The notes under the pieces: model-generated
The model's input: only the letters and a program-made list of their open reading frames with translations
The model's database searches: none
What the model was told of the DNA's origin: nothing
From: Planctomycetota bacterium
GTDB lineage: Bacteria > Planctomycetota > Phycisphaerae > Sedimentisphaerales > Anaerohalosphaeraceae
Direction of reading: 5' to 3'
DNA length: 62,259 nucleotides
NCBI GenBank assembly: GCA_019456225.1
Contig: VRUI01000021.1
Coordinates: 1-62,259 of the forward strand
Shown here: positions 21,837 through 42,372 of the stretch, piece after piece
How the letters are laid out: each line of letters starts with the position of its first letter
Position numbering within the stretch: the first letter of the stretch is position 1
Made by a program: the position numbers and the translations under genes

Positions 21837-21843
21837 AGCATAT

Positions 21844-22436: not shown

Positions 22437-22468
22437 CCCGGCAATTAATATTCAGTAAATTGCTTGTT

Positions 22469-24594: not shown

Positions 24595-24667
24595 TTATTT
24601 CAATTTGTCTCTGACGTCAATTCCAAAATCTTAAATCATTGAAATTCAGTGCGAACTAAGTGAAATA

Positions 24668-26206
24668 CTATTTTCGCAGGAACATAAGCTTAGCCGGCAG
24701 CGGGATATTGTTGCCAAGGTAATCCTCTCCATAACCGGCTTCTGCCAGTACTTCAATATCAGCTAATGCTCGCTTGTCTCCAATAAAATTCACTTTAAAA
24801 TCAACTTCGATGTCTATTTGTCCGGTAACCTGAAATTGCGTGATTTCATCCATTACTCGCTCCAGCAAAGTGCCCTCTTTTTCGTTTTCCTTAGGAAAAA
24901 AATCCAGTGATTCTGAGTATATGACCAACTTGCCCATATCTGCAAGCATAAGAATGATCCCTTTTACAATTTCGCTAATACTTCTATTGCTGTCTTTTTC
25001 CTGTACCAGGCGAAGGCGTACTATTTCTGTGGCAAGCCATCTGCGCTTCTGAGCGTTTATTTTTTCGTTGACCCGAAAGATGTCAAGGGGCATGCTTGCA
25101 TTGAAGTTTCTGTCTTCAAACTCCATAGTTACATCAGTTCCATAATGAAGAACAAGTGCGGAAATTAGCGTTGAAGGCCGAACGTGAAATCCACGATATC
25201 GGGGAATGCTGACTTCTATCTGGCCTATCTCGGCATAACGAGCCAACATACCCTGAGACAAATCCTTACCGCAGCCAAGATATTGACTTATGTAATTGGT
25301 GCAATAATCCTTTAGCATCTCCAGCAGCTTCTGCGGGTCTACTAACTGACGGCCGGTCTCGGCCTGGTCGTCCTCGATCAAAGCTAAATGCCGCTCAAAA
25401 TAATGTGTCAATACCGTTGCTATTTGTAACAGATGCAATGTTGTCCCTATATCACTCCTTAAGGCCTTCATGTGCGAATCGACACTTACTGCATCTGTTT
25501 CGGATATATGTGTATCGTAAAGTGACTGAAGATTGTGGAATCTGAATTCAAATATTCTCAGGTTCTCTTCGTTTAAAATTGTCAGATAAGGTTCAATGTC
25601 TCGCTGCCGTTTGATCTGATCATAAAGATCGATCAAGCCGCAGTCTTTTTCAAGATTCAGAAATGCCGTTGCCAGTTTTGTTATCGTAATTGGGACCTTC
25701 TCAACTTGGCGCGAACCATGATCGGAGGCCAATTGGCCCGTGGGAAGTTCTTCAAAATAATCAGAAATATCAAAAGGTTCTTCAGAGACCGACAAACATA
25801 GATCGCCGGCTTGCTGGAGCAATCGCTTCATGGACTTTAATAAAATATCTATGACAAATTTTATCGCAGAATCTGTTGCTCCAAAGAAATTCCGGCTAAC
25901 AAATACAAAAGTCTGCCTCGGCAAACTATGATTAATATTCAAAAGTTCATAATTAATCTCAGAAAAATTCTTTATCGTGGCAACCGTTAAACGAAACGGA
26001 CTCCATTGGATGTTGTTCTTAGTTCCGTAAGTATCAAGATATTCTTCAACCTGCGAGGAGTGTGACAACAAGTCCCCTATCAATGGGCGCAGTAGAAAAT
26101 CTTCATTAAATTCCTGCTGTGTTAAATATTTTGAAATACTAAGCAATACTTTGGCACGCCTGGATATCAAGCGGGCAAATTCCTGATCACTGATTATCGA
26201 ACTCAC
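24668..26206 (-). CDS. Large protein with an HPr-like segment
   Basis: A 512-residue soluble protein I cannot assign to a characterised family. Residues about 1-325 look mostly helical. Residues about 328-400 resemble HPr: EVSIPRYRGFHVRPSTLISA has the GxHxRPS pattern in which HPr's phospho-His sits (His341 here), followed by a beta strand, VTMEFEDRNFNASMPLDIF. The C-terminal 110 residues are alpha/beta. It lies beside kinase fragments and downstream of an NtrC-type regulator island, so a role in a phospho-relay or nitrogen-type PTS is conceivable. It starts 140 bp from a small conserved gene on the other strand. Confidence 0.6.
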   Translation of the reverse strand: MSSIISDQEFARLISRRAKVLLSISKYLTQQEFNEDFLLRPLIGDLLSHSSQVEEYLDTYGTKNNIQWSPFRLTVATIKNFSEINYELLNINHSLPRQTFVFVSRNFFGATDSAIKFVIDILLKSMKRLLQQAGDLCLSVSEEPFDISDYFEELPTGQLASDHGSRQVEKVPITITKLATAFLNLEKDCGLIDLYDQIKRQRDIEPYLTILNEENLRIFEFRFHNLQSLYDTHISETDAVSVDSHMKALRSDIGTTLHLLQIATVLTHYFERHLALIEDDQAETGRQLVDPQKLLEMLKDYCTNYISQYLGCGKDLSQGMLARYAEIGQIEVSIPRYRGFHVRPSTLISALVLHYGTDVTMEFEDRNFNASMPLDIFRVNEKINAQKRRWLATEIVRLRLVQEKDSNRSISEIVKGIILMLADMGKLVIYSESLDFFPKENEKEGTLLERVMDEITQFQVTGQIDIEVDFKVNFIGDKRALADIEVLAEAGYGEDYLGNNIPLPAKLMFLRK

Positions 26207-26372
26207 TATAATGTCACCTTTTCATAGAAGCAATGTCGCACTCAGTTTATTCATCGCAGCTTCAAATTACAAATTATACTTACCAATATACTATCGGCAC
26301 ATTGCAATTAAAATTGAATTTTTAGTCATCTGGAAATATTTCACCATTTAATTGCTTAAAACAGGGACGATT

Positions 26373-26573
26373 ATGGACTGTACAACAATACATGAATCTA
26401 ATTTCAGTGTTGAATTAGGAGTTAATGGGCAAAAGATCGATTTAAATAGATTTGTTGAAAGTTTCATCTCACAAGCTGTAATCGGAATGCTCAAGTCACT
26501 GAGAGGCGTCGGTGAGGTTGAAAATATTGATCTGAAGATTTCAAAAGAAGCTAAGGGGCCGAAGGCACAGTAG
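26373..26573 (+). CDS. Small conserved protein of unknown function
   Basis: A 66-residue protein starting MDCTTIHESNFSVELGVNGQ and containing IDLNRFVESFISQAVIGMLKSL. An AGGGA site precedes the ATG at 26373; the longer frame from 26352 lacks one. I recall similar short proteins (a 'VNG..I.LN.FV..F' pattern) beside P-loop proteins related to MobB, and here a truncated P-loop gene follows 55 bp downstream. Function is unknown. Confidence 0.55.
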   Translation: MDCTTIHESNFSVELGVNGQKIDLNRFVESFISQAVIGMLKSLRGVGEVENIDLKISKEAKGPKAQ

Positions 26574-26628
26574 AGTATTTGGGATTTCGCAATGAACTTA
26601 GGGTACTAAAATGATTAAGATTTAAGGT

Positions 26629-26781
26629 ATGATAATGATTGGTGCAGGTGACAGGAATGTCGGTAAGACCGAGTTTGCCTGCTCATTGATCTGGAAATTT
26701 GGTTCGCAGCATAATATCATTGGTATAAAAGTAACCACGATAGATCATGATTTCTTTTATTGTAACATTGGTCCTCACTGA
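26629..26781 (+). pseudogene. Truncated P-loop NTPase (MobB-like N-terminus)
   Basis: A 50-codon frame starts MIMIGAGDRNVGKTEFACSL, a Walker A loop followed by IWKFGSQHNIIGIKVTTIDH, then stops at TGA. Full-length relatives continue well past this point. It is probably the 5' remnant of a gene paired with the small gene before it. The truncation point lies about 40 bp from the end of the PQQ-propeller gene on the opposite strand, so a rearrangement at the operon end probably removed the rest. Confidence 0.5.
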
Positions 26782-26819
26782 ATCGTTACGTCTGATCGGA
26801 GCCTTGCGTTTCCGCGTTT

Positions 26820-27950
26820 CTATTGTTGTTCTACGGCGTTAAATTTTGCCGAGCCGCTGTTGGTAATGCTTGCACGAAACTTTGGCCATGGTGAATCGGC
26901 AAGTCCTTTAGTTTCCGTTTGCAGGGCGTAGAGTGTGCCATCATCGGAGCCGACTAACAGCAACCCATCAGAGCAAATTGTTGGCGAAGAGAATATAAAC
27001 TTTTGTGTTTTGAATTTCCATAGCACCTTTCCGGTACTTTGAAATACATATAGATAATGATTGTATGATCCGACATATATTGTTCCGTCAGCAGCGATAC
27101 AGGCCGAAGAAATCACCCAGTCTCGCGTGTTAAATTTCCATTTTAGTTTGCCTTGAGGTGATACAGCATAAAAATATCGACTCATCGAGCCGATATAAAT
27201 AGTTCCGTCAGGACCGAGCGACGGTGATGCAAATATGCTTGCTTCTGTGTCGAATCTCCATTTTTCCGCGCCCTGAGATGTGAGAGCGTATAGATTCCCA
27301 TCATTCGAACCAAAATATATTGTCCCGTCGCTATCGAGTGCAGGTGACGATAACACTTTATCTCCGGCTTTGAATTTCCATCGCAAGCTGGAGTCCGGGT
27401 TTATCGCATAGAGATAATGATCGCCGGAGCCTACATAGATACAACCATCGGGACCAACGGCAGGCGAAGAAGCAACTTTGCCTTGTGTCTGGAATTTCCA
27501 TCGCAAATTGCCATTATTGGAATCTAAAGCGTAAATATAACTGTCATCAGAGGATACATAGAGTGTACCATCGGAACCAATCGCCGGAGACGATTCGATT
27601 TTATCTGAAGTTTTAAATCTCCATAGCTCCCGGCCGGCTGAATTTAAGGCGTAAACATTTCCATCGAATGAACCGAAGTAGATATTGCCATTATTATCCA
27701 GGGTAGAACTTCCGTGAACGAAATCACCGGTTTTGAAACTCCAATTCATTTTGCCGTCTTTATTGATAGAATAGAGGTGGTGATCATGCGAGCCGATATA
27801 GATGGTTCCATCCGGAGCGACAGTTGGGCAAGTCGGCATAACATTGCCTGTTTTGAAACTCCAGAGCAGATGTTCATCTCCAGACCGCTTTAAACAGATA
27901 GCCAGCAAAACGGCAAACAACAAAATAATGCAAAAAAGAATCTTTTTCAT
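26820..27950 (-). CDS. PQQ-type beta-propeller protein, membrane-anchored or secreted
   Basis: A 376-residue extracytoplasmic protein. A hydrophobic N-terminal segment (KKILFCIILLFAVLLAICL) works as signal anchor. The rest is at least eight repeats of the pattern 'xWxFxTxxxVxSSPAxxxDGTIYxGSxDxxLYAL', a PQQ/BamB-like propeller without evident quinoprotein catalytic residues. Last gene of the molybdoenzyme operon, overlapping the ABC ATPase gene by 4 bp. It could scaffold or fold the periplasmic complex; no direct evidence for substrate. Confidence 0.8.
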   Translation of the reverse strand: MKKILFCIILLFAVLLAICLKRSGDEHLLWSFKTGNVMPTCPTVAPDGTIYIGSHDHHLYSINKDGKMNWSFKTGDFVHGSSTLDNNGNIYFGSFDGNVYALNSAGRELWRFKTSDKIESSPAIGSDGTLYVSSDDSYIYALDSNNGNLRWKFQTQGKVASSPAVGPDGCIYVGSGDHYLYAINPDSSLRWKFKAGDKVLSSPALDSDGTIYFGSNDGNLYALTSQGAEKWRFDTEASIFASPSLGPDGTIYIGSMSRYFYAVSPQGKLKWKFNTRDWVISSACIAADGTIYVGSYNHYLYVFQSTGKVLWKFKTQKFIFSSPTICSDGLLLVGSDDGTLYALQTETKGLADSPWPKFRASITNSGSAKFNAVEQQ

Positions 27951-28645
27951 GAAAGAGAATTCTCCGTCGGGGTTTGTCCTGATGATTCAGTCATAATACC
28001 ATCGTCCATTTTAAATATTCGGTTGCCGTAATTGGATAGCTGCTGATTGTGTGTAACCATTATAATTGTTGTTCCGCTTTTCCAGAGTCCGGCAAAGAAA
28101 TCCATAATCTCTAACTCTGTTTCGCTGTCAAGGTCGCCGGTAGGCTCGTCAGCTAACAATAAGGCAGGAGCGTTCATCAAAGCACTGGCTATCGCTACAC
28201 GGCGTTTCTCGCCGCCTGAGAGTTGATCAGGATAAGCATGTGTTCTATGGGCAAGTCCTACCGATTCGAGAAGGTTTTTTGCTCGCGGCATATTTGACCT
28301 GGTTGGTTTCGGCAAAAAACTCTGTGGCAAAATAACATTTTCAAGAACCGTCAGAGAACTAATGACAGAAGCATTTTGAAAAACAAATCCGATTTTTTGA
28401 GCACGAATCTGTGCCCTCAATTGTTCGTCAAGATTCCAAATGGATTGGCCGTCGAGTAAGATTTCTCCGCTGGAAGGCTTTAGTAATCCACCGATTACAC
28501 CAAGAAGAGTTGATTTGCCAGTTCCCGAGCGGCCAATTACAGCAACAAAATCTCCTTTTGCAACCTTAAAGCTAACGCCGCCAAGTGCTGCGATCGTTCC
28601 ATCTTTTCCAGTATAATTTTTTGTAATATCAATTGCGGAGATCAT
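27947..28645 (-). CDS. MacB/LolD-type ABC transporter ATP-binding protein
   Basis: A 232-residue ABC ATPase with Walker A GRSGTGKS, signature LSGGEKRRVAIASAL and Walker B LLLADEPTGDLD. The LolD/MacB family drives mechanotransmission rather than classical transport. It overlaps the permease gene by 4 bp upstream and the propeller gene by 4 bp downstream, so the four-gene end of the operon (DUF4418, permease, ATPase, propeller) is tightly coupled. Confidence 0.93.
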   Translation of the reverse strand: MISAIDITKNYTGKDGTIAALGGVSFKVAKGDFVAVIGRSGTGKSTLLGVIGGLLKPSSGEILLDGQSIWNLDEQLRAQIRAQKIGFVFQNASVISSLTVLENVILPQSFLPKPTRSNMPRAKNLLESVGLAHRTHAYPDQLSGGEKRRVAIASALMNAPALLLADEPTGDLDSETELEIMDFFAGLWKSGTTIIMVTHNQQLSNYGNRIFKMDDGIMTESSGQTPTENSLS

Positions 28646-29853
28646 GTTAGTCTCCCCTGTTTTATAGACTCGTACGGTTCTGCTTTCAAGACAGATATAA
28701 CAGGCATTATTGCAGTAATTACAGCAGTGGCAGTGCCTAAAACGTTAAATGCCGCAACAAAGAGGGCTGTGGTAGCAGCAGTAGGCAGGACATCAGGTGT
28801 ACCAAGAGCATTGGATAGTAATTCTCTAAAAGAAATAACGATTAATAATCCCACAAGGCATCCAGAGAGAGACGATGTGGCAGCTATCGCGATAGATTCT
28901 TTGGTGAGCATCTTGAAAATAAAGCGTTTGTTTGCGCCTTTGGCTATGAGCAGCCCTATCTGGCTTCGGCGTTCTCTTACTGCCATAGAGAAAATCACAC
29001 CACTCATGATTAGTGCCATTACCCACAGTCCGGCAACGACGCAAACAAGTACGCTGGCAATTGCGAATAATTGCTGCCTGGCAAGTTTGGCAACTGTTGA
29101 AGAAAGTACCACCTGTATTTCCGGGGCGGCTTGCTCTATTCGTTCAGCAAGATCAATAAGATCGACACCTGTTTCAGCTTTGACTAATATTGTCGAAACA
29201 TCCCCCTGGCGAATTCTCAATGGCATTTCAGCTTTTGCCTGTGAGGCGATTACCATTTTTCGCAATGACTTTTCGGACATATAAATCGTCCAATCCATTC
29301 CTGTACCGGTAGGCTCTAAAACGCCGGCTACGGTAAAAGATGTTCCATAGAATTGAGCCTCATTCCCCTGGCGAAGGAGTATTCTATCTCCAACTATCAT
29401 CCAGTTTTCGGTTTGGGAAATAGATTGCGGAACTTTACTTTTAAGCCATGGTTTTATCGTGAAATCTGTTACAGGATCAAAAGCAACGATAAAGAATTTC
29501 CCTGCACAGCATCGTGCGTTTGTAAGCGTTTCAACGAAAGTCTGGTTAGATGTGTGGTCAACTCCAGGTACTTTGGATACTTTTTCGGCAGCAGAAGGGT
29601 CTAGATAGAATGTAGCTGGTTTGCCGGTTATTAAAGCTTCATTGAACTGTTTTGCGACCTCCTCGCCTCTTGGCACAACCATTATATCTGCGCCCAATCG
29701 GTTTACAGTGTTTGTTATGCCTTCATTGACACCGACAATCAGAAGCGCGACAGCAGTCATAACTGCCGCGGCAATGACAATGCCACTTGCCATCAGCGAT
29801 GAGCGTAAGGGATTACGCTTGATCTGACTTAATGCGAGATACCAGTCGTTCAT
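28642..29853 (-). CDS. MacB/FtsX-type ABC transporter permease
   Basis: A 403-residue permease of the MacB/LolC class: one N-terminal transmembrane helix (SSLMASGIVIAAAVMTAVALL), a large periplasmic domain (about residues 45-250), then three C-terminal helices (FAIASVLVCVVAGLWVMALI, ITAATSS-type segment, and a final helix near residue 365). The periplasmic part contains a CC pair (TNARCCAGKFF) not usual for the family, which could bind metal or form a disulfide. It pairs with the adjacent ATPase. Confidence 0.9.
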   Translation of the reverse strand: MNDWYLALSQIKRNPLRSSLMASGIVIAAAVMTAVALLIVGVNEGITNTVNRLGADIMVVPRGEEVAKQFNEALITGKPATFYLDPSAAEKVSKVPGVDHTSNQTFVETLTNARCCAGKFFIVAFDPVTDFTIKPWLKSKVPQSISQTENWMIVGDRILLRQGNEAQFYGTSFTVAGVLEPTGTGMDWTIYMSEKSLRKMVIASQAKAEMPLRIRQGDVSTILVKAETGVDLIDLAERIEQAAPEIQVVLSSTVAKLARQQLFAIASVLVCVVAGLWVMALIMSGVIFSMAVRERRSQIGLLIAKGANKRFIFKMLTKESIAIAATSSLSGCLVGLLIVISFRELLSNALGTPDVLPTAATTALFVAAFNVLGTATAVITAIMPVISVLKAEPYESIKQGRLT

Positions 29854-30287
29854 TTCTGCTTAAACCTTTTACCGGGAAAAAACACCATTATTAATCCGGA
29901 GATTATTACGATCGATCCAACAATACGTTCAGCCGGTTTGGTTCCGATTTGGCAAAGAGAGTGATCATGCCCACAGGTACTCCCAATAACCGTATTGAAT
30001 GAAACCAATATTATAACCAAACCCAAGCCTATAAGTAAAGCTCCAATTGAAAAATGAGTCTCTCGGGTGGGTCTAAAGAAAAGAATCAAGCCGGAAAGAA
30101 CAACTAATCCGCCCATGAATAATTCAATCCTCCCAAACCAGAAGCATCGCATAACCGGTTCATAAGAGCTGAAAAAACTGAGATCGCCGGACTCGCATAT
30201 AGGAAATATATATTTAGGAATCATCGCAACAAATAGGCCGAGAACTGCAATAATCGCAGCAAAGATTTTAGAAAGTTTAGTTTTCAT
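29850..30287 (-). CDS. DUF4418-family membrane protein
   Basis: A 145-residue protein with four transmembrane helices and conserved features PICESG near residue 31, MRCFWFGRIELFMGGL, and a periplasmic HDHSLC loop. This matches what I know of DUF4418, a family commonly encoded beside MacB-like ABC genes. The ATG at 30287 has an AAGGTGA site and is preferred over an in-frame GTG three codons upstream. Its function is unknown; an ABC-associated role fits its position and its 4-bp overlap with the permease. Confidence 0.75.
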   Translation of the reverse strand: MKTKLSKIFAAIIAVLGLFVAMIPKYIFPICESGDLSFFSSYEPVMRCFWFGRIELFMGGLVVLSGLILFFRPTRETHFSIGALLIGLGLVIILVSFNTVIGSTCGHDHSLCQIGTKPAERIVGSIVIISGLIMVFFPGKRFKQK

Positions 30288-30441
30288 AGAGATCACCTTT
30301 ATCTTATTAATATTTTAATCTTTCTGTAAGAGTATTTCCCGAGAAAAACTAAAATAGATTAGTTAATTACAAAGCACACCGCTGCTTTTGAGAAAAGCAG
30401 TTTCGCTGAAGTATGCCGATTGGAATAGGGACTATGAAGAC

Positions 30442-30933
30442 TTAGATAGGGATCTTATCAGGTGAATCTACGAAGACCGTGGGGGGAGTAAGACCATTTC
30501 TGATAAATGCTCGGCCTGTGAAAGGCAATGGCATTACAGAAGGCAACTGAACCAGAAGATGCGGACCAGTCCTTTGAAAGCTTACGTTGTGTTTACCATA
30601 ATGCCCGGAACACTGTGCAGAAGAGATGTAAGTGACTTTGACTGTGACAGGCTTTTTAGCACAGTGATTCTCCGGTGAAGAACGTCGAACCATTTGGTTG
30701 TTGCCGCTGGGAACACAGCAACAGTTGCTGAGGCATTGGTCTGCGGTCATACAGCCACAGTCGTGGCCGGCACATGGGAAATCGGAATTTGAAACAACTT
30801 TTGCCAATGGCGCAATCCAGTCCAGGGCAATGTAAATAAAGTTAGTTGCGATAACGAAATAGCAGATGCCTACTAACGCACAAAAGCTACGTCTGTGGAA
30901 TCGTTTTATGGATTTTCTTTTACTTTTAGTCAT
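30442..30933 (-). CDS. Cys-rich membrane-anchored protein of unknown function
   Basis: A 163-residue protein with a basic N-terminus, one transmembrane helix (CALVGICYFVIATNFIYIAL) and then a periplasmic Cys/His cluster PCAGHDCGCMTADQCLSNCC. The tail of about 90 residues carries two more Cys and several His. A GTG three codons upstream (30942) is an alternative start. It lies between two clear copper-protein genes and the DUF4418 gene. Metal (copper) handling is the natural inference, but no characterised homologue comes to mind. Confidence 0.6.
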   Translation of the reverse strand: MTKSKRKSIKRFHRRSFCALVGICYFVIATNFIYIALDWIAPLAKVVSNSDFPCAGHDCGCMTADQCLSNCCCVPSGNNQMVRRSSPENHCAKKPVTVKVTYISSAQCSGHYGKHNVSFQRTGPHLLVQLPSVMPLPFTGRAFIRNGLTPPTVFVDSPDKIPI

Positions 30934-30988
30934 TTGGTACACTCGTGCGCAGCTGACAAATCCGTAAACAGCTACTTAAAACTTACCA

Positions 30989-31375
30989 TTACTCCACTTC
31001 GAGGATCCCTCTCATCTGAAGATGAAACTCGCTGCACCATGTTGTGCAGTAAAAATCATATATACCAGGCTTTGTGGGTGTAAATTCCAATATCTTATTT
31101 TTTCCGGCCTTCAATTCGCCGGCATCAATACCTAATGCCGGGATTGCAAAGCCATGCATGACGGTATCAACATTCCTGACCCTGAGTTTAACCTTCTGGC
31201 CAACCTGGACTTTGATATGCCGTGGCGAGAAATTACCTTTCTCCGGAGTGCGGGCAACAATATCAGCCGTAAAGTCTTTGGTTAGAGAAGCCTCATACCT
31301 CAGTGACGCGTAAATAGGCCCAATAGTACAGAACAGGAGCAGAAGTATAGAAAGAGTCGATTTTATTATTTTCAT
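30989..31375 (-). CDS. Secreted CuA-type cupredoxin (COX2-like domain)
   Basis: A 128-residue exported cupredoxin. A signal peptide covers about residues 1-24 (MKIIKSTLSILLLLFCTIGP). The CuA ligand set is complete: His74 (VMHGFAIP), Cys110 and Cys114 (FYCTTWCSEFH), His118 and Met121, the Cx3Cx3Hx2M arrangement of cytochrome oxidase subunit II and N2O reductase. The start ATG at 31375 has a GGAGG site inside the end of the preceding gene; the longer frame to 31420 lies within that gene. No oxidase subunit I or nosZ is present, so it should be an electron carrier for this operon. Confidence 0.88.
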   Translation of the reverse strand: MKIIKSTLSILLLLFCTIGPIYASLRYEASLTKDFTADIVARTPEKGNFSPRHIKVQVGQKVKLRVRNVDTVMHGFAIPALGIDAGELKAGKNKILEFTPTKPGIYDFYCTTWCSEFHLQMRGILEVE

Positions 31376-31382
31376 AGGTAAA

Positions 31383-32867
31383 TTAGCCTCCATAAAGCCA
31401 TCCGAACGCAATCGTAACAAGAGTTAACAATACAAGCAGGGGAATAAACCCGCGTTTAGCCGTAGCGGTATCTGCAAACGTCTGTAAACACAACTTATAA
31501 CCATAATCTACTGATACAAGATACCCGCCCAACAGTGTGAAAAATTGCAGCGGTACAAGCCAAACTGTTCCAAACGGAGTCCATGGAATCCCGGCGGTTC
31601 CAAACAGATCCCAGCCTCTAGCGAAGGGATCTGAAAAAATATGTAAAAGATAAGATCCATTGGGCAGCAGGAAACCAAAACTAAAAGCTATCCACGCCGC
31701 CAGTCCCATAGGAACGAGGCTATAAGACAGATTGACAAAAACTTTTTTTAGCCGGATATCTTTTTCACCACTAACGACCTTTGACAACCATGCGAAGATA
31801 CCGAATATACCTGGAATCACCACAAGTGCAAAAAATGTATGCAAACTTATGAATTTAAACCAACCAATAAAAGTTTCCCCTCGGACCCAGTTTTTGATGG
31901 TTCCCCATGGGCCCATCATGGCAACGTAAAACATTACCGCAATCGCAAGCATAATAAAACATTTCCACGCCTCATCAAGACCTCTTTTCTCATCTACAAG
32001 GAGATCCGTAGCAGGCGGCCTTAGGTTAAATGCCATGTTGTCAAAGGGACAGCTTTTAAAACACTCAAGGCACATTCCGCAGTAAGTGTTTTTCTTGAAA
32101 CTATGCGGTTCCAGCATCCACGGACAGCCATACCCATTCTTATTTCCGGTTACACAAGTTTTTTTCTTGTGTTTTTCACATATTTTCGGGTCCTTGACCC
32201 TTATCTCCGACATCCCCAAATTGGAGTACAAACCCTGGAAACCGCTAACAGGACAAACATATAAGCAAAACGTTCTTTTCTCGAAAATCATCATAAAAAC
32301 TATACCAAGAACGATAAGAGAACCGAGCATAAAGAAAGTTGCTAATGGCCTGACAGTAAAAAAGCCACTGAAATATGTTGTCATGAGAAAAAGAATATTC
32401 ATAATCCACATGTTGCTTAGTTTTTTGGGCCACTTGAGATTTAGCCCGCCGACTTTTTTACCTACGCCGAAAATTTTAATTCGCTGCAGCCATTCTCCAA
32501 ATGACGGCAAGGGGCAGACCATACACCAGGTTCTGCTAAAAACAGGAACAAGAATCATCATCAGCACAACCCACCAAAGTATCCAGACCATCATGATACC
32601 AAAGGAGTAATTACCGGAAGAAAAGCCTCCTATAACACCACTCATGAGTATCAACATAAATAGAAACATATTCATGAAGATGAAACACAAAGGGAACCAA
32701 CGTTGTTTGAGTATCCAGCGTATCAAAGGAATTGATGCCAGATCAAATCGCCAGTCTAAGGGTATAATACCAAGCAACTTTTGCCTGCTGCCTGACTGAT
32801 TACAACCTGCTTGATCACAACATGGTTGATCATTATCTGTTTGATTATTATTATTTTCATTAGACAT
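31383..32867 (-). CDS. Polyferredoxin-type membrane protein (NapH/NosR/CcoG-like)
   Basis: A 494-residue membrane protein. The soluble N-terminus contains CCDQAGCNQ. Six or more transmembrane helices follow. Cytoplasmic-type Fe-S motifs are WCMVCPLPSFGEW, FCLYVCPVSGFQG and CGMCLECFKSCPFDNM, as in the C-terminal modules of NosR and NapH. The ATG at 32867 has GGAG nine bases before it and overlaps the stop of the gamma-subunit gene. It probably exchanges electrons between the periplasmic copper/heme proteins and a membrane or cytoplasmic partner. The direction is unknown. Confidence 0.8.
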   Translation of the reverse strand: MSNENNNNQTDNDQPCCDQAGCNQSGSRQKLLGIIPLDWRFDLASIPLIRWILKQRWFPLCFIFMNMFLFMLILMSGVIGGFSSGNYSFGIMMVWILWWVVLMMILVPVFSRTWCMVCPLPSFGEWLQRIKIFGVGKKVGGLNLKWPKKLSNMWIMNILFLMTTYFSGFFTVRPLATFFMLGSLIVLGIVFMMIFEKRTFCLYVCPVSGFQGLYSNLGMSEIRVKDPKICEKHKKKTCVTGNKNGYGCPWMLEPHSFKKNTYCGMCLECFKSCPFDNMAFNLRPPATDLLVDEKRGLDEAWKCFIMLAIAVMFYVAMMGPWGTIKNWVRGETFIGWFKFISLHTFFALVVIPGIFGIFAWLSKVVSGEKDIRLKKVFVNLSYSLVPMGLAAWIAFSFGFLLPNGSYLLHIFSDPFARGWDLFGTAGIPWTPFGTVWLVPLQFFTLLGGYLVSVDYGYKLCLQTFADTATAKRGFIPLLVLLTLVTIAFGWLYGG

Positions 32868-34248
32868 TTGTTTCGACTCCATTTTTCTGTTTGCCCTTGA
32901 AGAGAACCAAACCCAAAATTAATACAAAGGTAACACCTGTAGCGCCAACAAATGCGTTGAAGCGGGAATTCGGAGTGACATCAAGAAACCCTATCATATA
33001 AGGATGAAATTCTCCGCATGTTTCCGAGCACCTGAATGTAAAACGTCCTGGCTTATCTGCTACGAAAGTCACCTTACCGATAAGCCCGGGCCTGGCTTTG
33101 ATCTTTAAGTCGTAACCGTCAATATATAACCCGTGAGTTACGTCAAGTGATTCCATCCTGAGTGTAACGAGTTCTCCTTTTTCAAGTCTTATTCGATTTG
33201 GTGTGTACTCGAAACGTTTGGCTACAATGTTAATAACTCTCGGTTCTTTTACAGTTTCGATCGCTTGAGTTTGTGAAGTTGCTGCATTCGCCGTACTTAC
33301 GAATGAAAACGAAGACAGCTTTTCTATCCATGATTTTTTATGAGCATCAACATTGCTTGCGACATCTGAAGTTTTTTGCTCTGCGGGCTTTTTAGACTGT
33401 GGCGGCTGGATTTGTAAATCAACCCATTCACTTATCGATTTGCGAGAACCTCGATCGTCTTGGTCGCCATCCCAGACAGCGAATGATACTGACTGCTTAG
33501 TCTCCGAAAATTGGCAGTCGTTCTCTTTATCTTCAGTCGTTAGCGACCTTTTAAAAACCACGTTCCAACTTCCATCACGCCATATACCCCGCCCCTGAAC
33601 AATCTGGTCATCCTTTCTGGTAACAGAGCCTGCTCTCTGGGCCAACAGATCTGAAACAGCGCTGTTAAGCTCCGGAATACTCACAGTGAAAATTTCTTCC
33701 TTCTCAAAGGGATAAACAAAATCAGCATAAGTTTGCTCAGCACCTGTTTTGCCCTGCCAATATTGCATATCCTTGTTTGCCTGCCATTGCCAGAGATTAA
33801 CAGGACTGGAAAAACCCATCATAATAGAACGCGGCGGTGCATCCGTATCGATTGGAGCAGCCACTGCGCAACCATCAACAAAAGAATCTACTAGTGCGGT
33901 CTTATCTGCATGGTCATCTTCCCATGTCATCTTAAAATATATATCTTTTCCATTATGGAACGCCTGTACATCAACTGAAGGAGTCGAACTTTTAGGCCAA
34001 GGTCTTTCAGTTATCTGGTGGTTTAACAAAACTTTTAAGACAGGTGTATTTTGCCAAACCTCAGCAAAGACGTCTGCCTCCTTTAGAGCTAAATCCTCTG
34101 CGTGAAAATTTACCGCAAGTACGCCAGGTTCAACTATCTCGTAGGTTTCCGATGAACCATAGCGATTTATCCATCCATAGCTAGCTAACCAGACAAAAAG
34201 TCCCGCCGCTATCAGGATAACAATTGTAACAGAAATTTTATTGTTCAT
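32860..34248 (-). CDS. NxrC/EbdC-type heme b gamma subunit fused to a CuA cupredoxin domain
   Basis: A 462-residue protein with an N-terminal signal anchor (residues 5-25). An ethylbenzene-dehydrogenase-like heme-b domain spans about 38-282, with FHNGKDIYFKMTWEDDH, a candidate axial Met at 143/144 (SIMMGFSSPVNLWQW) and a candidate axial Lys270 (SRKSISEWVDL). A linker of about 50 residues carries an AxA-like patch (STANAATS). A cupredoxin domain at about 335-425 has all CuA ligands: His372, Cys407, Cys411, His415, Met418 (CSETCGEFHPYM). A C-terminal transmembrane helix spans 430-450. The heme b subunit of type II DMSO reductases normally stands alone, so the CuA fusion is unusual. AGAGGA precedes the ATG. 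Predicted job: take electrons from the NarH-like subunit and hand them to copper. Confidence 0.85.
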   Translation of the reverse strand: MNNKISVTIVILIAAGLFVWLASYGWINRYGSSETYEIVEPGVLAVNFHAEDLALKEADVFAEVWQNTPVLKVLLNHQITERPWPKSSTPSVDVQAFHNGKDIYFKMTWEDDHADKTALVDSFVDGCAVAAPIDTDAPPRSIMMGFSSPVNLWQWQANKDMQYWQGKTGAEQTYADFVYPFEKEEIFTVSIPELNSAVSDLLAQRAGSVTRKDDQIVQGRGIWRDGSWNVVFKRSLTTEDKENDCQFSETKQSVSFAVWDGDQDDRGSRKSISEWVDLQIQPPQSKKPAEQKTSDVASNVDAHKKSWIEKLSSFSFVSTANAATSQTQAIETVKEPRVINIVAKRFEYTPNRIRLEKGELVTLRMESLDVTHGLYIDGYDLKIKARPGLIGKVTFVADKPGRFTFRCSETCGEFHPYMIGFLDVTPNSRFNAFVGATGVTFVLILGLVLFKGKQKNGVETNV

Positions 34249-34268
34249 TTAGTATTTCCTCTTCTATA

Positions 34269-34886
34269 TTATTGCTTTATACCTGTAGCGGCTATCAGAA
34301 CAAAATGCTCTCGCTCAGATGCCAAAAACTCCAGGACATCTTTAGCGATATTGACATAAAAAGAATTTTCTGATTGAGAAATTATCTTTTCAGCGATTAA
34401 CACAGTAGCAGGTTCCAAATGCTCTATAAAAAATTTCTTTTGCGAATCGAGACAAACTTCCATTTTTTCTTTGGCTTGTTCGCCGTCCGGCAACTGACCG
34501 GCACGATCGGCTTTAAGAATAAGACCATACATAAATTCCATCTCACAGGTTATCGAGTCGGGCCTTTCCTTATCCGGTTCGAAACCAAAGGCTGTATAAA
34601 AGCCCATGATATCAGAAAGCATGTTTGCTCTTTGAAATTCGTTTTTGACCAGATGCTCAGCACCGTAAAGCCAAACTGTCCCCGCTCTAAAAAGCGAGTC
34701 ATATTCAGCCATCAGGTTTCGCTGCTCATCTTTCAAATCCGGAAAATTGGCAAAAAACGAATCGTCAGGATAACTAAACGCAGCTGCCAATGTTTTGTAC
34801 TGGCGCATCCGCTGATCATTATTTTTCGTATCAATACCCAAGTTTGGCAACTCCGAATTATCAGGTAACGCTGATTCTGTTGACAT
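34269..34886 (-). CDS. TorD/NarJ-type molybdoenzyme assembly chaperone
   Basis: A 205-residue cytoplasmic chaperone for cofactor insertion and Tat proofreading of the catalytic subunit. YDSLFRAG, then FYTAFGFEPDKERPDSIT and CEMEFMYGL, are typical of the TorD/NarJ/DmsD helical family in NXR and type II clusters. ATG 34886 has AAGGA five bases upstream; an ATG at 34901 is the alternative. It overlaps the beta-subunit gene by 26 bp. Confidence 0.88.
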   Translation of the reverse strand: MSTESALPDNSELPNLGIDTKNNDQRMRQYKTLAAAFSYPDDSFFANFPDLKDEQRNLMAEYDSLFRAGTVWLYGAEHLVKNEFQRANMLSDIMGFYTAFGFEPDKERPDSITCEMEFMYGLILKADRAGQLPDGEQAKEKMEVCLDSQKKFFIEHLEPATVLIAEKIISQSENSFYVNIAKDVLEFLASEREHFVLIAATGIKQ

Positions 34887-36000
34887 TTCTTTCCTTGTCA
34901 TGTTTTTCTCTAATGATTATAGGCTCTTTTATAGGAACCTTCACTATTTCATGGCCCTTTTCGTCATAGCCGACGCAGTGACCTGTCTCTAAATCGCCCT
35001 GGACATCGAAGGAATGAATAATTTTGCCGGTACAGCCAAAAAGCATCAACAGGGCGACAAGCGATTTGTCGTTAATCGCGTTTTTATACATTTCAACGGC
35101 CTTGGCGGCACCTGGACCGAACAACTGTTTGTTAAACGATTCGGGAGTGTTGATCGGCGGAATATAGTAAACATTCGGCTCGGTTCCAAACTGCGGATAC
35201 AGCGGAAGAGCGATCTTCTTTACATGGACGAGATAATCTATCGGATTCTTCGGATCGATCTTGTCGGGCTGGTTTTTGAAACCGAACATTCTGATCTTTC
35301 CGATACAGTTCTGGACGCATTGTGTTTGCTCGCCTTTTTCAGTGGCGGGATAACAAGCAATACATTTCTCAGATTTGCCGGTAAGCGTGCGGAACATGCT
35401 CTTTTTGTATGGGCATGCCCTGACACATTCTCTGTATCCGCGGCATCTTTTCTGGTCGATAAGAACCGTTCCCTCGTCCCTCTTGTAGATAGCCTTACGC
35501 GGGCAACCGCCGAGGCAGCCGGGATATGTGCAGTGATTGCAAATTCTCGCCAGATAGAACATCCATGGTTGGTGTGGGATTTTTATAAATTGACCTTGCT
35601 TGACTAATTCGCTTACTTCATCTTCGCCTAAGTTGGGATAACTAAAGTCTTCCTTATCTGGCACGTATCCCGTGATATTCTCACCGGCCCCGGCAGATTC
35701 AAAAATAGTTTTGCCCTTGTATGTATCACCATCCCACTTCTGATCTTCGAGTTTGCCAAGCAGGTTGACGTCCCAGCCTAAAGGATAAAATCCCCAGGGC
35801 TTGGTTTCGACATTGTTCCACCACATGTATTCCTGGCCCTTGCCGGATGTCCATGCGTTCTTACAGGCCATCGTACAGGTTTGGCAGGCAATGCACTTAT
35901 TTGTGTCAAATACCCACGAAACCTGCTTGTCTGGTCTGCTTTGAGGATAGATATAATCCATCTCACGATTTAACTGCCAGTTGTGTACTTTATGACTCAT
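34861..36000 (-). CDS. nxrB: NxrB/NarH-type iron-sulfur beta subunit
   Basis: A 379-residue electron-transfer subunit with four cysteine groups for one [3Fe-4S] and three [4Fe-4S] clusters: Cys36-39-42-46 (CIACQTCTMAC), Cys154-157-162-166 (CNHCTYPGCLGGC), Cys186/192/196 (CRGYRECVRAC, where Tyr in the NarH CxxW position marks the [3Fe-4S]-type site), and Cys213/216/228/232. The segment TSGKGQEYMWWNNVETKPWG is characteristic of nitrite oxidoreductase-type and related type II beta subunits. It overlaps the catalytic gene by 4 bp. It has no signal peptide, so it would be co-exported with the Tat substrate. The symbol denotes family; nitrite oxidation itself is unproven. Confidence 0.88.
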   Translation of the reverse strand: MSHKVHNWQLNREMDYIYPQSRPDKQVSWVFDTNKCIACQTCTMACKNAWTSGKGQEYMWWNNVETKPWGFYPLGWDVNLLGKLEDQKWDGDTYKGKTIFESAGAGENITGYVPDKEDFSYPNLGEDEVSELVKQGQFIKIPHQPWMFYLARICNHCTYPGCLGGCPRKAIYKRDEGTVLIDQKRCRGYRECVRACPYKKSMFRTLTGKSEKCIACYPATEKGEQTQCVQNCIGKIRMFGFKNQPDKIDPKNPIDYLVHVKKIALPLYPQFGTEPNVYYIPPINTPESFNKQLFGPGAAKAVEMYKNAINDKSLVALLMLFGCTGKIIHSFDVQGDLETGHCVGYDEKGHEIVKVPIKEPIIIREKHDKERNVNRISVT

Positions 36001-39000
36001 GTAACATAGTCTCCATCAATAAATTTCTTCATGGCATCACTTTCATACGACGGCCTGAATCCTAGCTTAGCAGGCCTCCAGAGCTTATTGCCTCCGGTTC
36101 CGCCATCTTCGGCCTTGGTAAATTTAACAAAACTTTCTCTCGGTGCGCCATTTGGACAATTAACATCGGGAGCGAATCCCTTGCCAATGACCGGCCCGAT
36201 AGTATTTTTTCTCACTAAACTATCAGTCATAAGTGTTGGTCTCAGCCAGCCGCGTGTAGCACTTTGATGAGAACCAAATCTGAACATCGATTGATACCCG
36301 GTCCTTGGATTTTTCGCTAAGCCATCCTTGTTTTTCAAATGTCCTTCAACAGATCCATACGTCGCGCCATACATGTTGAACCACGAACGTGTGACTTTTT
36401 GCGGGACGCCGCGATAGTACCTGGCTCGCAGCATTAGTCGCGAAAGCCGGTATTCTTCGCTTCCTTCAATCTTTTCACCATGATACGGACGGTCTTCCGG
36501 GTCAGCATCGACCCAGACATAATCGCCGTCTTCAATCCCCAATTCCTTTGCGTCAAGAGGATTAATATCGACGTACCCTTCACCGACCCACGGCATACGC
36601 TTGTCTCTACGATGAGTGTCACCGAAAGGACCAAACCATACAGCGATAATATCCGTATCGACCGGCAATGTATGAGAACCGTGTCTGTATTTTGGAGTCA
36701 GATAGATATATTCAAACCCTTCGTCTAATTCGCGAAGAGGATGCTTTGATTTAAGCAGTTTAGCCGGCGAGAAAACAACATTTCTAACCTGCCTGGTCTC
36801 TCCGGAACGATCATCCATTGGTATTCCGTATTTCTCAGGACCAAACGGCCTTATCGCCGGGTGAGGCTTTGCCACAATAGCATTAGGTTCATAGAATGTC
36901 GCATCAATGGCTTCGCGATGAACAGGGAGGTTTTCTCCGTACTCAATAAACTCATCTTCATCACGGTAGAATTCCATTCTGCCGGTCTTGTTATACCATT
37001 GCTTGCTCTCAACAGCCTGTTCATACCCAATTATTTTCGGATATGTTCGACTCATCAGAAGTGCCGGAACACCCTTCTTGGCATCTTCTTCCAGCTTATT
37101 AACATCGTATCCTTTGGTCATAGATGTCGCATCCATAATCCTCTGCAGATACACATCAACTTTGCCTTCATGTACGAACTTCCAGTAATCTTCAAATCGT
37201 TTATCGTTATGAAGTTTACCGAGAGCTTTCGATATACCTGCATGCACTTCAATGTCGCTGCGGGTATCATGGATTCGTTTCATACCTGACCGCGGGAACA
37301 TCTGAAGGAACGGATTCGTTACCGATGCTGTGGCGTCAGGGAACTGGAATTCGCCCCATGAATCAACACCCCAAACGATGTCTGCATACTCACACGATGT
37401 CGACCACCACCAATCAGCAACGGATATGAACTCGATATTGGGCAAAGTGTTAACAACGGCCTCGTAATGGCCCTTCAAATTGCCAAGAATAGAGTTGGCG
37501 TTGCAGAAGGTCAGAGATTTCGTTGGAGTAGGCATGTGAGTTTTGCCCGTAAAGTTTTTGTTACCCACTCTAAGAGGCTTATCACTGTGGTTATAGTAAT
37601 GAGCGGACTCAAATTTAAAGAACTTCTTAAAGTTTAGTTTCCCCTTCTCTTCGAGTTGGATATTAAAGGGGTTCTCTGCGATGTATGTGCCCATCCCATC
37701 GAAATACGCTGCCCGGTAATTTCCGGCATAACTTCCTACGTTTCCGCTGTGAGTTCCAATATTTTTAGTCAAAGCACATAACAGCAAAATGCCTCTGTCT
37801 TTAAGGTCTCCATTGAAAAACTGGTTCGTCCCCATACCGCAGGCAATAAGCGTATTACCCGCGTTCTCGGCGACCTGATGGGCCAGACTGGTAATCGCTT
37901 CTTTGGGAGCCCATGTCAGCTTTGACACGGCGTCAAGATCAAAAGTATCGTTGAGATATTGGCTCGTCAGACTAAATGCAGTCCTAACCTTGACTTTTTT
38001 ACCGTCAAGTTCGATTTCATATTCACCGTCCAACTCAGGATCGATTCCGGTTTCTTTTAGATGATCGCCAACGTCATCACGGGTAATTGCAGCGAAATCT
38101 TTTGTGTTTTTATCCCAGACAACAAAACTACCCCACTCCTGAAGCAACTCCTCTGGAATAACCTGTTTGCCGCCGGCTGATATGGGAGAACCGGCCTTTT
38201 CGCCCTTCTTGAGAACTCTGGTGTCCCTTCTTTCCTTTGGTGGCACAAAACCAGGAATTGCATCTTCTGCCCGCACAAGTTTAAGAGTATCCATTCTTAC
38301 CAATAATGGCAAGTCCGTTCTACTCTTGACATACTCAGCATCGTAGAGTTTTTCCTGCATAATTATATTGGCCATACCAAGGGCAAGAACAGTATCCGTA
38401 GCCGGACGAATTATAAGGACTTCATCGGATTTGGAGGCAACAGAAGAATATTCAACCGTAATGCTTATTACCTTTGTACCTTTTAATCGGGCTTCGGTCA
38501 GCCAGTGAGAATCCGGCATTTTCGTCGAAATCCAGTTAATACCCCAGGCTATTAGCAGTTTTGCGTTTTCAACTGAAAACAGATCCCAGTCAATCGTCTG
38601 TTGACCCGTGACCATTGTATGCCCCGGCGGAAGGTCCGTATGGAACGTGTAGTTATCAAAACCTCTGGCACCCATCGCTGTTTTTTCATCGGTTCCACGG
38701 ACGTGTGAATCCAATAAAGCCATTGCATTTGCCAATCGGTACATGCCAAATACACGAGTTATACCCAACAGGGGCATTCCACCCCGAAATTTCATCACCT
38801 GCGTTCCCGCGTTCGCCATTACCTCGATTGAATCGTCATCGTAAACACCTTGCGATTTCAATAATGCCTTACCCTCTTCGCCGCTATAAGTTGTGGCGAT
38901 GTTTGTGTACACCTTAGCAGCAATATCAAAAGCATCATCCCATGAAAGTCGCAAAAACGGCTCTTTGCCGCGATTTAGATACTTAGAATGCGGTTTACCG

Positions 39001-39497
39001 TTAGCTTCTCTGGGGAAACCTGCGTCAACCCACTTCTTAAAACCTTCCCGTATCATCGGGTATTTTACTCTGCGCGGGCCCTGTATCCTGCGAATAAGCG
39101 CCAATCCCTTTTGGCATAAACGCGGCTCCCAACGAGATGAGGCCTGATTGCCATAGAGATCTTTGGCTTTTCCGTAACCATAACTCGGACCTATTCTTGT
39201 GATTACATTATTTTTCACATAGGCCTTGAGCAGACAGTTATGGGTATCATTCGGTGCACAAAGAAAATGATAGGTGAAGTCATGCTTGAACTGATTGCGG
39301 TAAATCTTTTCCCAGTCTCTGGCAGGATAGAAGTCCAGTGGGTTATCCACATCTTCTATAAGCTTAAGAGCTGCGAATGCCGGCTGAGCTGTTGTCAAAG
39401 CCAAACCGCCTACAGCCAATTGGAGGAAATCACGGCGAGGTAAACCACCCTGACTTTTTCGTTTCGATTCTTTCTTATGCTTTTTCTGCATAGCCAC
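35997..39497 (-). CDS. nxrA: NxrA/NarG-family periplasmic molybdopterin oxidoreductase, catalytic subunit
   Basis: A 1166-residue type II DMSO-reductase-family enzyme with a twin-arginine signal (LPRRDFLQLAVGGLAL, Arg21-Arg22), so it acts in the periplasm. The Fe-S/FS0 region is HFLCAPNDTHNCLLKAY with Cys80 and Cys88, and Cys128 in RWEPRLCQKGLALIRR. Typical segments of the NXR clade include ITRIGPSYGYGKAKDLYGNQ, FHTDLPPGHTMVTGQQT and DSHWLTEARLKGTKVI. The start is GTG at 39497 or ATG two codons later. Length agrees with anammox and Nitrospira NxrA. It could run as nitrite oxidase, nitrate reductase or act on another oxyanion. First gene of an eleven-gene operon. Confidence 0.85.
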   Translation of the reverse strand: MAMQKKHKKESKRKSQGGLPRRDFLQLAVGGLALTTAQPAFAALKLIEDVDNPLDFYPARDWEKIYRNQFKHDFTYHFLCAPNDTHNCLLKAYVKNNVITRIGPSYGYGKAKDLYGNQASSRWEPRLCQKGLALIRRIQGPRRVKYPMIREGFKKWVDAGFPREANGKPHSKYLNRGKEPFLRLSWDDAFDIAAKVYTNIATTYSGEEGKALLKSQGVYDDDSIEVMANAGTQVMKFRGGMPLLGITRVFGMYRLANAMALLDSHVRGTDEKTAMGARGFDNYTFHTDLPPGHTMVTGQQTIDWDLFSVENAKLLIAWGINWISTKMPDSHWLTEARLKGTKVISITVEYSSVASKSDEVLIIRPATDTVLALGMANIIMQEKLYDAEYVKSRTDLPLLVRMDTLKLVRAEDAIPGFVPPKERRDTRVLKKGEKAGSPISAGGKQVIPEELLQEWGSFVVWDKNTKDFAAITRDDVGDHLKETGIDPELDGEYEIELDGKKVKVRTAFSLTSQYLNDTFDLDAVSKLTWAPKEAITSLAHQVAENAGNTLIACGMGTNQFFNGDLKDRGILLLCALTKNIGTHSGNVGSYAGNYRAAYFDGMGTYIAENPFNIQLEEKGKLNFKKFFKFESAHYYNHSDKPLRVGNKNFTGKTHMPTPTKSLTFCNANSILGNLKGHYEAVVNTLPNIEFISVADWWWSTSCEYADIVWGVDSWGEFQFPDATASVTNPFLQMFPRSGMKRIHDTRSDIEVHAGISKALGKLHNDKRFEDYWKFVHEGKVDVYLQRIMDATSMTKGYDVNKLEEDAKKGVPALLMSRTYPKIIGYEQAVESKQWYNKTGRMEFYRDEDEFIEYGENLPVHREAIDATFYEPNAIVAKPHPAIRPFGPEKYGIPMDDRSGETRQVRNVVFSPAKLLKSKHPLRELDEGFEYIYLTPKYRHGSHTLPVDTDIIAVWFGPFGDTHRRDKRMPWVGEGYVDINPLDAKELGIEDGDYVWVDADPEDRPYHGEKIEGSEEYRLSRLMLRARYYRGVPQKVTRSWFNMYGATYGSVEGHLKNKDGLAKNPRTGYQSMFRFGSHQSATRGWLRPTLMTDSLVRKNTIGPVIGKGFAPDVNCPNGAPRESFVKFTKAEDGGTGGNKLWRPAKLGFRPSYESDAMKKFIDGDYVT

Positions 39498-40225
39498 TTG
39501 TTCCTTTTAAAATACAGCCTGAGAATTGCAATCAGACTTAAAATACCAGGTTATATGAAAATAAGTTAGTTCAAGACGATAAGCTTTACTGCCATTGTCG
39601 CATCAAATGGGCATACTGGGTTTATGCATCAGGCCAGGAGTGGCCAATGCCACCCGATGTATAGGCTTTTATTGACTGGGATGACTATTTTAAACTAACG
39701 GTACTACAAAAAAATACTCAAATAGCAATAAAGGCCATATCGGTCTTAGTTAAATTAGCACAATCTGAAAGAACTGTCAAGAATATATTCAATTTTTTTT
39801 AGATTAACTCAAAAAAATATTTAGCTTGCTATCAGTTCCTGAGTTTAGCTAATAAAAAAGAAGAATTATACGGATTGAAAAAAATTGCAAGAGTCATAGG
39901 CCTAAACTGTAATTAAACGTTCGGCCGTAAAAGCAATTCTGTTGTCCATTGGCTAATTCACCCTTTAAGCAATCAATGATCAAACCACTTAACTAAACAA
40001 CAGTAAACAAGGCTTTTCCTACGAAAATTCAAGATTGTATAGTGAAATAGGTCTACTATATCAACTAACTGGAGTGAGGCAAAAACCCGCCCTGAAAGGC
40101 TCAAAGTAATGAATTAAGAGGACATAACAGGCATTTAAATTTCACAAAATGAAAAACGTACCAGTTTCGTACCAGTTTTTCGAGGAGTTTACTGAGTGAA
40201 ATCCACGAAATAAACTCGCTTACTG
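39498..40225. other. 728-bp intergenic region upstream of the molybdoenzyme operon
   Basis: No gene is supported; it is AT-rich. It must hold the operon promoter, but I see no strong minus-strand -35/-10 pair (TTGAAC near 39573 has a poorly spaced TATAAC). A small GGCCA/TGGCC hairpin lies near 39632-39645. Near 40160 the sequence GTACCAGTTTCGTACCAGTTTTT is a short direct repeat of unknown meaning. Confidence 0.4.
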
Positions 40226-40603
40226 CTAAACTCTCTCATCAATTTGTCGGATAATTTTCATAATTTCGTTGATTCTCCACTCAATCGATGATTGCATCCA
40301 AATCTGAAAATGATTGACACGATTTTGGCAGTGCATCATGTAGAGTATCTTAATCGACAAGGCAACTGTGGCAAATTCTATCATCAGCAGCGTTATCTCG
40401 CTGCTACGCATGAAAAATGAGATTATCAGCGGGCAAACTATCAACAAGGCAAAAACGATGTTGACTATTTTTCTATTAAAAGTCGGAACTCCGCCTATTC
40501 CACCTACAATGGCACGAACGCGTTCTTTTTCCTTTTGAAAATTTTTAAGTTCTTTTTTTAAATCGTCAATCTCGTCTTTAAAATCATTCGGCATTTCTTC
40601 CAT
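40226..40603 (-). CDS. Small coiled-coil membrane protein of unknown function
   Basis: A 125-residue protein: MEEMPNDFKDEIDDLKKELK opens a charged coiled coil to about residue 37, followed by two hydrophobic helices (VNIVFALLIVCPLIISFFM and LLMIEFATVALSIKILYMM) and a short C-terminal amphipathic helix. The ATG at 40603 has GGAGT four bases upstream, so the 23-residue longer frame is not used. It is isolated between two non-coding regions, and I recognise no family. Confidence 0.6.
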   Translation of the reverse strand: MEEMPNDFKDEIDDLKKELKNFQKEKERVRAIVGGIGGVPTFNRKIVNIVFALLIVCPLIISFFMRSSEITLLMIEFATVALSIKILYMMHCQNRVNHFQIWMQSSIEWRINEIMKIIRQIDERV

Positions 40604-40989
40604 ACGTACTCCTTTATCAGGTCTTAAAGTTTCGTAATATTTTTGTAAACCGTTGGATAAATATGTCTGCACACTATATAGCCGACACCGCCACGGCTGT
40701 CAATATTCAATTCTGGCCATATCTTTTCTGCCGTACCAGGCGCCTGCCGAAGTGTGATCTGCTCGAGATACTACTCAGCCGGCACGGTAGATCGTCTTGT
40801 AATTAAAGAAAAGAGAAATCCTTGAAGGTTCAACTTGAATCCGCCAACCTCTAAAATTCATTTTGGCGGTCAAGCGTACCCAATGGGTATTATTGCTATG
40901 AATGTTCCACTAAATAAGCTAAGTCAATTTAATATTATTGATTTCGTGCGCGCGATTATCTAAAGTAAGGCAAAATTAAGGAGAAATTA
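40604..40989. other. 386-bp intergenic region before the SDR gene
   Basis: Nothing firmly identifiable. Around 40680-40800 a minus-strand reading gives a coding-looking stretch (YLEQITLRQAPGTAEKIWPE) interrupted by stops, possibly gene debris. AAGGAG at 40978-40983 is the ribosome site for the SDR gene. Confidence 0.3.
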
Positions 40990-41754: not shown

Positions 41755-41762
41755 CCTGTATC

Positions 41763-42318: not shown

Positions 42319-42372
42319 AAAAGATTAAAAAAAAGCTGGTAAATTCGGCTGATTTCACTACAATCACACTTT

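Follow-up and report, generated by a model that had tools for sequence, protein, structure and literature searches.

The copper centre CuA is familiar from terminal oxidases and nitrous oxide (N2O) reductase. Nos clusters comprise NosZ, a NosR bearing flavin mononucleotide (FMN), and NosDFY. Among molybdenum (Mo) enzymes, the nitrite oxidoreductase of Kuenenia stuttgartiensis (NXR-ABC; 7b04), whose Mo, substrate, FS0 and heme-b ligand residues were named by Chicano et al. (PMC8387239), forms tubules with the cytochrome c NXR-T; neither a PolyFd-type polyferredoxin nor a CuA cassette is described in the main section of that paper. Small copper proteins occur in the NXR clusters of Nitrospina, Nitrospira and Kuenenia too, but as cupredoxin-like or blue copper proteins alongside cytochromes c: the Nitrospina paper describes two cupredoxin-like proteins in the nxr cluster, suggested to be copper carriers (PMC3578206), and blue copper proteins are mentioned for Kuenenia (PMC11791136). 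In the Nap system, NapGH provides a membrane protein with Cys-Pro and ferredoxin motifs that feeds a periplasmic Mo nitrate reductase (PMC5928378). Here we describe an operon at positions 26820-39497 of a 62,259-nucleotide stretch of the genome of a deep-sediment Planctomycetota bacterium (contig VRUI01000021.1, hereafter the window), in which an NXR-type enzyme is encoded together with two CuA domains and such a membrane protein.

We lean, if only slightly, towards reading this operon as encoding an exported NXR-family molybdoenzyme, mainly a respiratory nitrate reductase, that is wired through copper. All eleven consecutive minus-strand open reading frames (ORFs) of the preliminary description were confirmed in the window, and domain searches agreed with the families that it had listed (lengths in amino acids, aa):

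35997..39497, minus strand: NxrA-type catalytic subunit, 1166 aa; 931 bits to Kuenenia NXR-A (7b04) over 19-1165
34861..36000, minus strand: NxrB-type iron-sulfur (Fe-S) subunit, 379 aa; 382 bits to NXR-B (7b04)
34269..34901, minus strand: NarJ/TorD-type chaperone, 210 aa; PF02613, with TIGR03482 below cut-off
32860..34248, minus strand: gamma subunit, heme-b domain plus CuA domain, 462 aa; PF09459 and PF00116, with NXR-C and COX II matches
31383..32882, minus strand: PolyFd, NosR/NapH-like membrane protein, 499 aa; PF12801 (Fer4_5)
30989..31420, minus strand: CuA2, separate CuA protein, 143 aa; PF13473 and PF00116
30442..30942, minus strand: Cys-rich ORF, 166 aa; one hydrophobic stretch, without family
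29850..30296, minus strand: DUF4418 membrane protein, 148 aa; PF14387
28642..29853, minus strand: MacB/FtsX-type ABC permease, 403 aa; PF12704 and PF02687
27947..28645, minus strand: ABC ATPase, LolD-like, 232 aa; PF00005, with TIGR02211 below cut-off
26820..27950, minus strand: PQQ-type beta-propeller with an N-terminal hydrophobic segment, 376 aa; PF13570 and PF13360

Successive ORFs are joined by junctions of -4, -41, +20, -23, -38, +46, +145, -4, -4 and -4 nucleotides. In the loci L006, L007 and L008 gene order is unchanged for ten of the eleven (L006 and L008 share 14,382 identical bp and hence are not independent), and the order NxrA-NxrB-NarJ-gammaCuA-PolyFd-CuA is also kept in L010, L166, L167 and L168. 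Scans for promoters and terminators gave counts close to chance (33 found vs. 29.6 expected; 17 found vs. 12.9 expected). The Cys-rich ORF, for which no homologue was found in the compared loci, may lie outside the core operon; it sits between CuA2 and DUF4418 and may be either a copper-binding protein or not a gene.

From the predicted proteins the ligands of Mo, FS0, heme b and CuA can be read, as can the fusion, the polyferredoxin, the gene order and the operon's freedom from CXXCH motifs. NxrA carries a twin-arginine signal, RRDFLQ (identified by eye), and, when aligned with the Kuenenia NXR residues, retains the Mo ligand Asp275, the substrate residue Asn70 and the unusual 3Cys/1Asp ligand set of FS0, with Cys and Asp at the positions of NarG's His and Cys; the heme-b ligands Met144 and Lys270 of gamma align with Met155 and Lys305 of NXR-C. 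The proposed NXR-type core is thus borne out by full-length homology to NXR-A and NXR-B and by the retained Mo, substrate and FS0 residues, and, as also claimed, no NarI-type gene is present: Pfam and NCBIfam searches of the operon gave no match to the NarI family that would mark a NarGHI enzyme. Homology over the full length of NxrA with its active-site residues, and a heme-b gamma with Met and Lys, are features of a periplasmic NXR; NxrA falls, however, outside the clade of anammox-like enzymes with diheme gamma (a label assigned from gene order and identity), in a separate, more distant clade. Alpha, beta, the heme-b gamma ligands and the TorD-type chaperone are alike in the Kuenenia system, but identity to the window's enzyme is only ~45% and the Kuenenia gamma is without CuA. 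Other type II enzymes act on other oxyanions or on organic compounds, and ethylbenzene dehydrogenase uses the same gamma domain family; such a substrate seems very improbable here, given that the active-site residues match NXR and that NxrA scores, among solved sequences, 931 bits against NXR-A, 196 against 4ydd, which we take to be perchlorate reductase, and 112 each against NarG and ethylbenzene dehydrogenase.

The gamma subunit consists of an N-terminal hydrophobic segment, a heme-b domain, a CuA domain and a C-terminal hydrophobic segment; PF09459 and PF00116 lie in one ORF, which confirms the fusion first described. Its predicted CuA ligands, His372, Cys407, Cys411, His415 and Met418, are invariant in the four fused proteins aligned, and the ligand set His...CxxxCxxxHxxM is complete in both gamma and CuA2. 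Among solved sequences, CuA2 is closest to the C-terminal ends of nitrous oxide reductases (34 bits). CuA2 had been described as a separate, secreted protein; separate it is, but with a single N-terminal hydrophobic segment it may instead be anchored. In the window and 46 loci, the CuA pattern C...C...H..M was found in 11 of 2552 ORFs (9 distinct ones, given the identity of L006 and L008), and because all 11 fall in operons of this type, the association exceeds chance. The window's own genome (G000) holds three CuA-bearing ORFs, of 462, 324 and 144 aa.

Comparison with other NxrA loci bears on the copper wiring. The 40 loci examined (L040-L079) comprise all 22 located at 54-71% identity, the broken gene G122 and 17 further places; one of them, L040, is itself labelled copper-type on indirect grounds. 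The CuA pattern occurs in none of the 36 that bear a gamma, a multiheme ORF (at least four CXXCH motifs, same strand, at most 4 kb from NxrA) in 11 of the 40, and a diheme gamma in 9 of the 36 gamma homologues; the group of sister loci in which no multiheme ORF was seen contains truncated contigs. The multiheme protein of L045 has class I cytochrome c domains and comes after a cytochrome b-type gene, and in L048 a Copper-bind protein adjoins NxrA. No CXXCH-bearing ORF was seen at positions 24001-42500 of the window or in L006, L007, L008 and L010, and L009 has a single small one, far from the operon. These observations support the earlier proposal that copper stands in for cytochrome c, since relatives have multiheme c or diheme gamma where the operon has no CXXCH ORF; that reading is qualified by the cytochrome c biogenesis genes and octaheme cytochrome which G000 retains. 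More distantly, haloarchaeal plasmid clusters with NxrA-like genes have no CuA fusion in their annotation; on Natronococcus occultus plasmid 2 (L147, 9055-12198), an NxrA-like gene of ~49% identity, without a feature in the record, is followed by a 4Fe-4S gene and a TorD-type gene.

PolyFd carries the motifs WCxxCP, FCxYxCP and CGxCxECxxxCP, and C120/C123P, C206/C210P and C268..C278P are invariant in alignments of 11 and of 5 homologues. Its Cys-Pro motifs in a membrane module, followed by C-terminal 4Fe-4S motifs, place it with the NapH and NosR types, which have been linked to, or proposed for, quinol oxidation and electron transfer (PMC5928378). It differs from NapGH in that the first Cys-Pro motif is CX2CP, not CX3CP, the partner is CuA and not NapG, and the reductase is NXR-type and not NapA; no match was found among solved sequences at E values up to 1. 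The operon had been thought to join the plans of type II enzymes and of nos clusters. A CuA domain, a NosR-like membrane Fe-S protein and an ABC transporter are indeed common to the operon and nos clusters, but domain searches found no FMN-binding domain in PolyFd, Pfam and NCBIfam searches of the operon found no NosZ, NosD or NosL family match (no genome-wide NosZ search was made), and its ABC genes are of the MacB/Lol type.

Directly after CuA2 in L006, L007 and L008, and after the Cys-rich ORF in the window, lie the DUF4418, permease, ATPase and propeller genes; in L166 the permease, ATPase and propeller genes follow CuA2. The DUF4418-ABC-ABC-propeller four also come, in L140, after another CuA protein and a cytochrome with 12 CXXCH motifs. 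This 12-heme cytochrome is ExtM-like (L140, 1-7303). The contig of L156 (1-9983) overlaps L140 over 2,570 identical bases, the two coming from two metagenome-assembled genomes (MAGs), and continues with an ammonium transporter, a NapC type, an octaheme, an FGE-like, a Band 7 and a second octaheme gene. By neighbourhood only, these genes are tied to copper and nitrogen-oxide respiration, and a role in assembly is our guess; a search of the Creative Commons (CC)-licensed PubMed Central (PMC) literature listed no paper containing the word DUF4418.

Polyferredoxins of the CcoG type reduce copper. PolyFd might similarly, together with the ABC genes, build the CuA centres, by CcoG-like copper reduction and Nos-like loading, with another protein as the true electron donor of CuA, and the position of PolyFd between CuA genes at every locus with the set, as well as the 12-heme cytochrome adjoining another CuA protein in L140, would suit such a function. 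We nevertheless think it distinctly unlikely: NapH and NosR, the nearest described bearers of the motifs, are tied to electron transfer (PMC5928378), and L168 and L126 retain PolyFd, yet ABC genes were not seen next to their CuA2. On the preferred reading of a copper-wired nitrate reductase we infer the order and direction of electron flow, and quinol oxidation, as follows. PolyFd would take electrons from quinol and deliver them to CuA2, the CuA domain of gamma or both; these would reduce heme b, from which the NxrB Fe-S chain would lead to the Mo site, where nitrate would be turned into nitrite. The nitrite would then be handed to a NapC-octaheme (HAO-family) pair whose genes lie elsewhere in the genome. 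The DUF4418-ABC-propeller genes would most probably serve in assembling or loading the extracytoplasmic proteins, which is the weakest part of the proposal.

The reaction had been left open in the preliminary description; genome content points to nitrate reduction. In G000, which is 95.76% complete, no match was found at E 0.001, the cut-off for family searches, to heme-copper oxidase/NorB (PF00115), bd oxidase (PF01654) or NrfA (PF02335). An octaheme HAO-family protein, scoring 169 bits to 4qo5 (a 'hypothetical multiheme protein') vs. 93 bits to HAO 1fgj, adjoins a NapC/NirT-type protein; cytochrome c assembly genes are present, as is an ArrA-like protein (1270 bits vs. a cut-off of 1600). 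Because of this combination, genome content favours a nitrate-reducing anaerobe as the predicted host. Nitrite reduction by an HAO-type module has been proposed for Nautilia (PMC3701875). In G000, L141 (4036-8983) holds a respiratory cluster resembling ArrA/ArrB/NrfD together with a TorD-type chaperone; its score stays under the ArrA cut-off.

The same complex could also work as a nitrite oxidase, electrons from nitrite passing by way of heme b and CuA to an acceptor that the operon does not encode, for instance an oxidase where a carrier has one, or a different respiratory enzyme. The closest solved enzyme, NXR, is an oxidiser of nitrite, and planctomycete NXR-like genes have been interpreted as nitrite-oxidising potential (PMC10732223). 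However, neither heme-copper nor bd oxidase was found in G000, and the NapH/NosR-like partner suits flow from quinol to enzyme. CuA potentials lie near +250 mV. This is below the +420 mV couple (PMC8387239). Nitrite oxidation as the main function therefore appears unlikely. Several points tell against nitrate reduction as we propose it. The genome of L009 contains a heme-copper oxidase, which also speaks for nitrite oxidation, and that of L008 has bd-type matches, so that a strictly anaerobic life may not hold for related carriers; G000 is ~4% short of complete; and Kuenenia NXR catalyses both directions (PMC8387239). In L168, DUF4418-ABC-propeller genes were not seen after CuA2, and those genes are therefore not essential. 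Structure predictions were unusable both for gamma-CuA (4 sequences, mean pLDDT 38.0) and for PolyFd (5 sequences, mean pLDDT 45.9).

The copper genes also occur apart from the enzyme. In the CuA tree the fused domain groups with stand-alone CuA1 proteins and apart from CuA2 (bootstrap 100, SH-aLRT 98, with a long-branch warning). Gamma and CuA1 are separate genes in L009 (72% NxrA identity), with PolyFd-CuA2 on another contig of the same genome (L138), and the L040 genome (71%) has CuA1-PolyFd-CuA2 on another contig (L126); both loci are labelled copper-type although these genes sit on separate contigs, and L005, whose contig ends inside NxrB, is so labelled from its 96% NxrA identity. A homologous CuA1-PolyFd-CuA2 set without NXR is found in L124 (the window's own genome), L125 (its CuA2 missed by a simple gene caller and seen by another search) and L132; CuA2 of L124 and L132 bears CXXCH motifs, that of L124 with matches to cytochrome c families. 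Neighbours of the L124 set (7175-17811, contig 33) are a plastocyanin-like protein, a sigma-54 two-component pair and a protein of 514 aa with one CXXCH that, by eye, resembles a Cyc2-type cytochrome-porin. CuA1-PolyFd-CuA2 is, to judge by these predicted genes, a plug-in module that occurs also without NXR; it would have joined an NXR lineage, CuA1 then being fused to gamma.

L167 (1284-9706) is a mosaic, in which copper-type gamma-CuA, PolyFd (69% to the window's) and CuA2 are joined to NxrAB of another lineage: PolyFd and gamma-CuA each group with the copper type (100/100), whereas NxrB is placed on the canonical/anammox-like side (100/99) and NxrA outside the copper clade. Thus, either NxrAB was exchanged or the copper set was acquired twice. 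A single origin of the copper type, which held in the first NxrA tree (8 rows), was overturned by the placement of L167; with three loci added, at least two changes are needed. In the NxrA tree used, which omits L075 and L079 (split or short) and was built without Nitrospira, SerA, PcrA, ClrA, DdhA and EbdA sequences, the catalytic subunit is not placed within any characterised clade that has these copper partners, in line with the preliminary description. A CuA-linked NXR or a CuA1-PolyFd-CuA2 cassette was not found described in the CC-licensed PMC literature; the window operon differs from canonical nxr clusters in its CuA site fused to gamma and its polyferredoxin. The NXR-like genes reported from Planctomycetota MAGs belong to the same phylum and the same broad NxrA branch as the window (PMC10732223), and the words copper and cupredoxin have no occurrence in the main text of that paper. 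Small copper proteins of nxr clusters and planctomycete NXR-like genes were, then, already known; the predicted CuA fusion and cassette appear to be new.

Beyond the propeller gene, the operon is flanked by an ORF without Pfam family (24668-26206) and then by heme-synthesis genes; on the NxrA side lie a 148-aa ORF without family, a short-chain-dehydrogenase-like ORF (by eye) and a ketoacyl synthase. The heme-synthesis run (17170-23512), which lies within a few kb of the operon for the heme-b enzyme, is typical of the siroheme-dependent (Ahb) route, with AhbC-like and AhbD-like genes (both below NCBIfam cut-offs), HemA, a CcsB-like gene, a NirDL-like siroheme decarboxylase and HemC.

Of 397 genomes from the class, 6 have a gamma match (E up to 1e-25), the window's own included, as does 1 of 39 from the family (1e-30), namely the window's own. 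NxrA of any type was found in 87 of the 392 genomes sampled from the phylum (1e-50), own included, and in 2 of 40 relatives. Named relatives are Planctomycetota MAGs of MohnsGC08, a Planctomycetes B3_Pla MAG and SpSt-1156. A contig of MohnsGC08_bin191 (core GC08) shares 6,527 identical bp with the window, and Planctomycetes-affiliated NarG was reported from the nitrate-ammonium transition zone of that core (PMC7768721).

Here a molybdenum nitrate enzyme would have CuA as an internal relay, joined by fusion to the heme-b subunit. The comparison suggests that NXR-type enzymes can exchange one kind of wiring for another (multiheme c, diheme gamma or CuA), which bears on the question of direction and partner. 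A wider proposal, on which we are almost evenly divided but incline slightly to doubt, is that a transferable membrane copper set (CuA1-PolyFd-CuA2), carrying electrons between quinol and extracytoplasmic enzymes with no cytochrome c, was coupled to two NXR lineages, the window's clade and that of L167, and made them into quinol-driven nitrate reductases in anaerobic planctomycetes that take nitrate on towards ammonium. The operon would mark an uncultured nitrate user and, because of the identical bin191 contig and the NarG report (PMC7768721), may help to name a supplier of nitrite for anammox at GC08.

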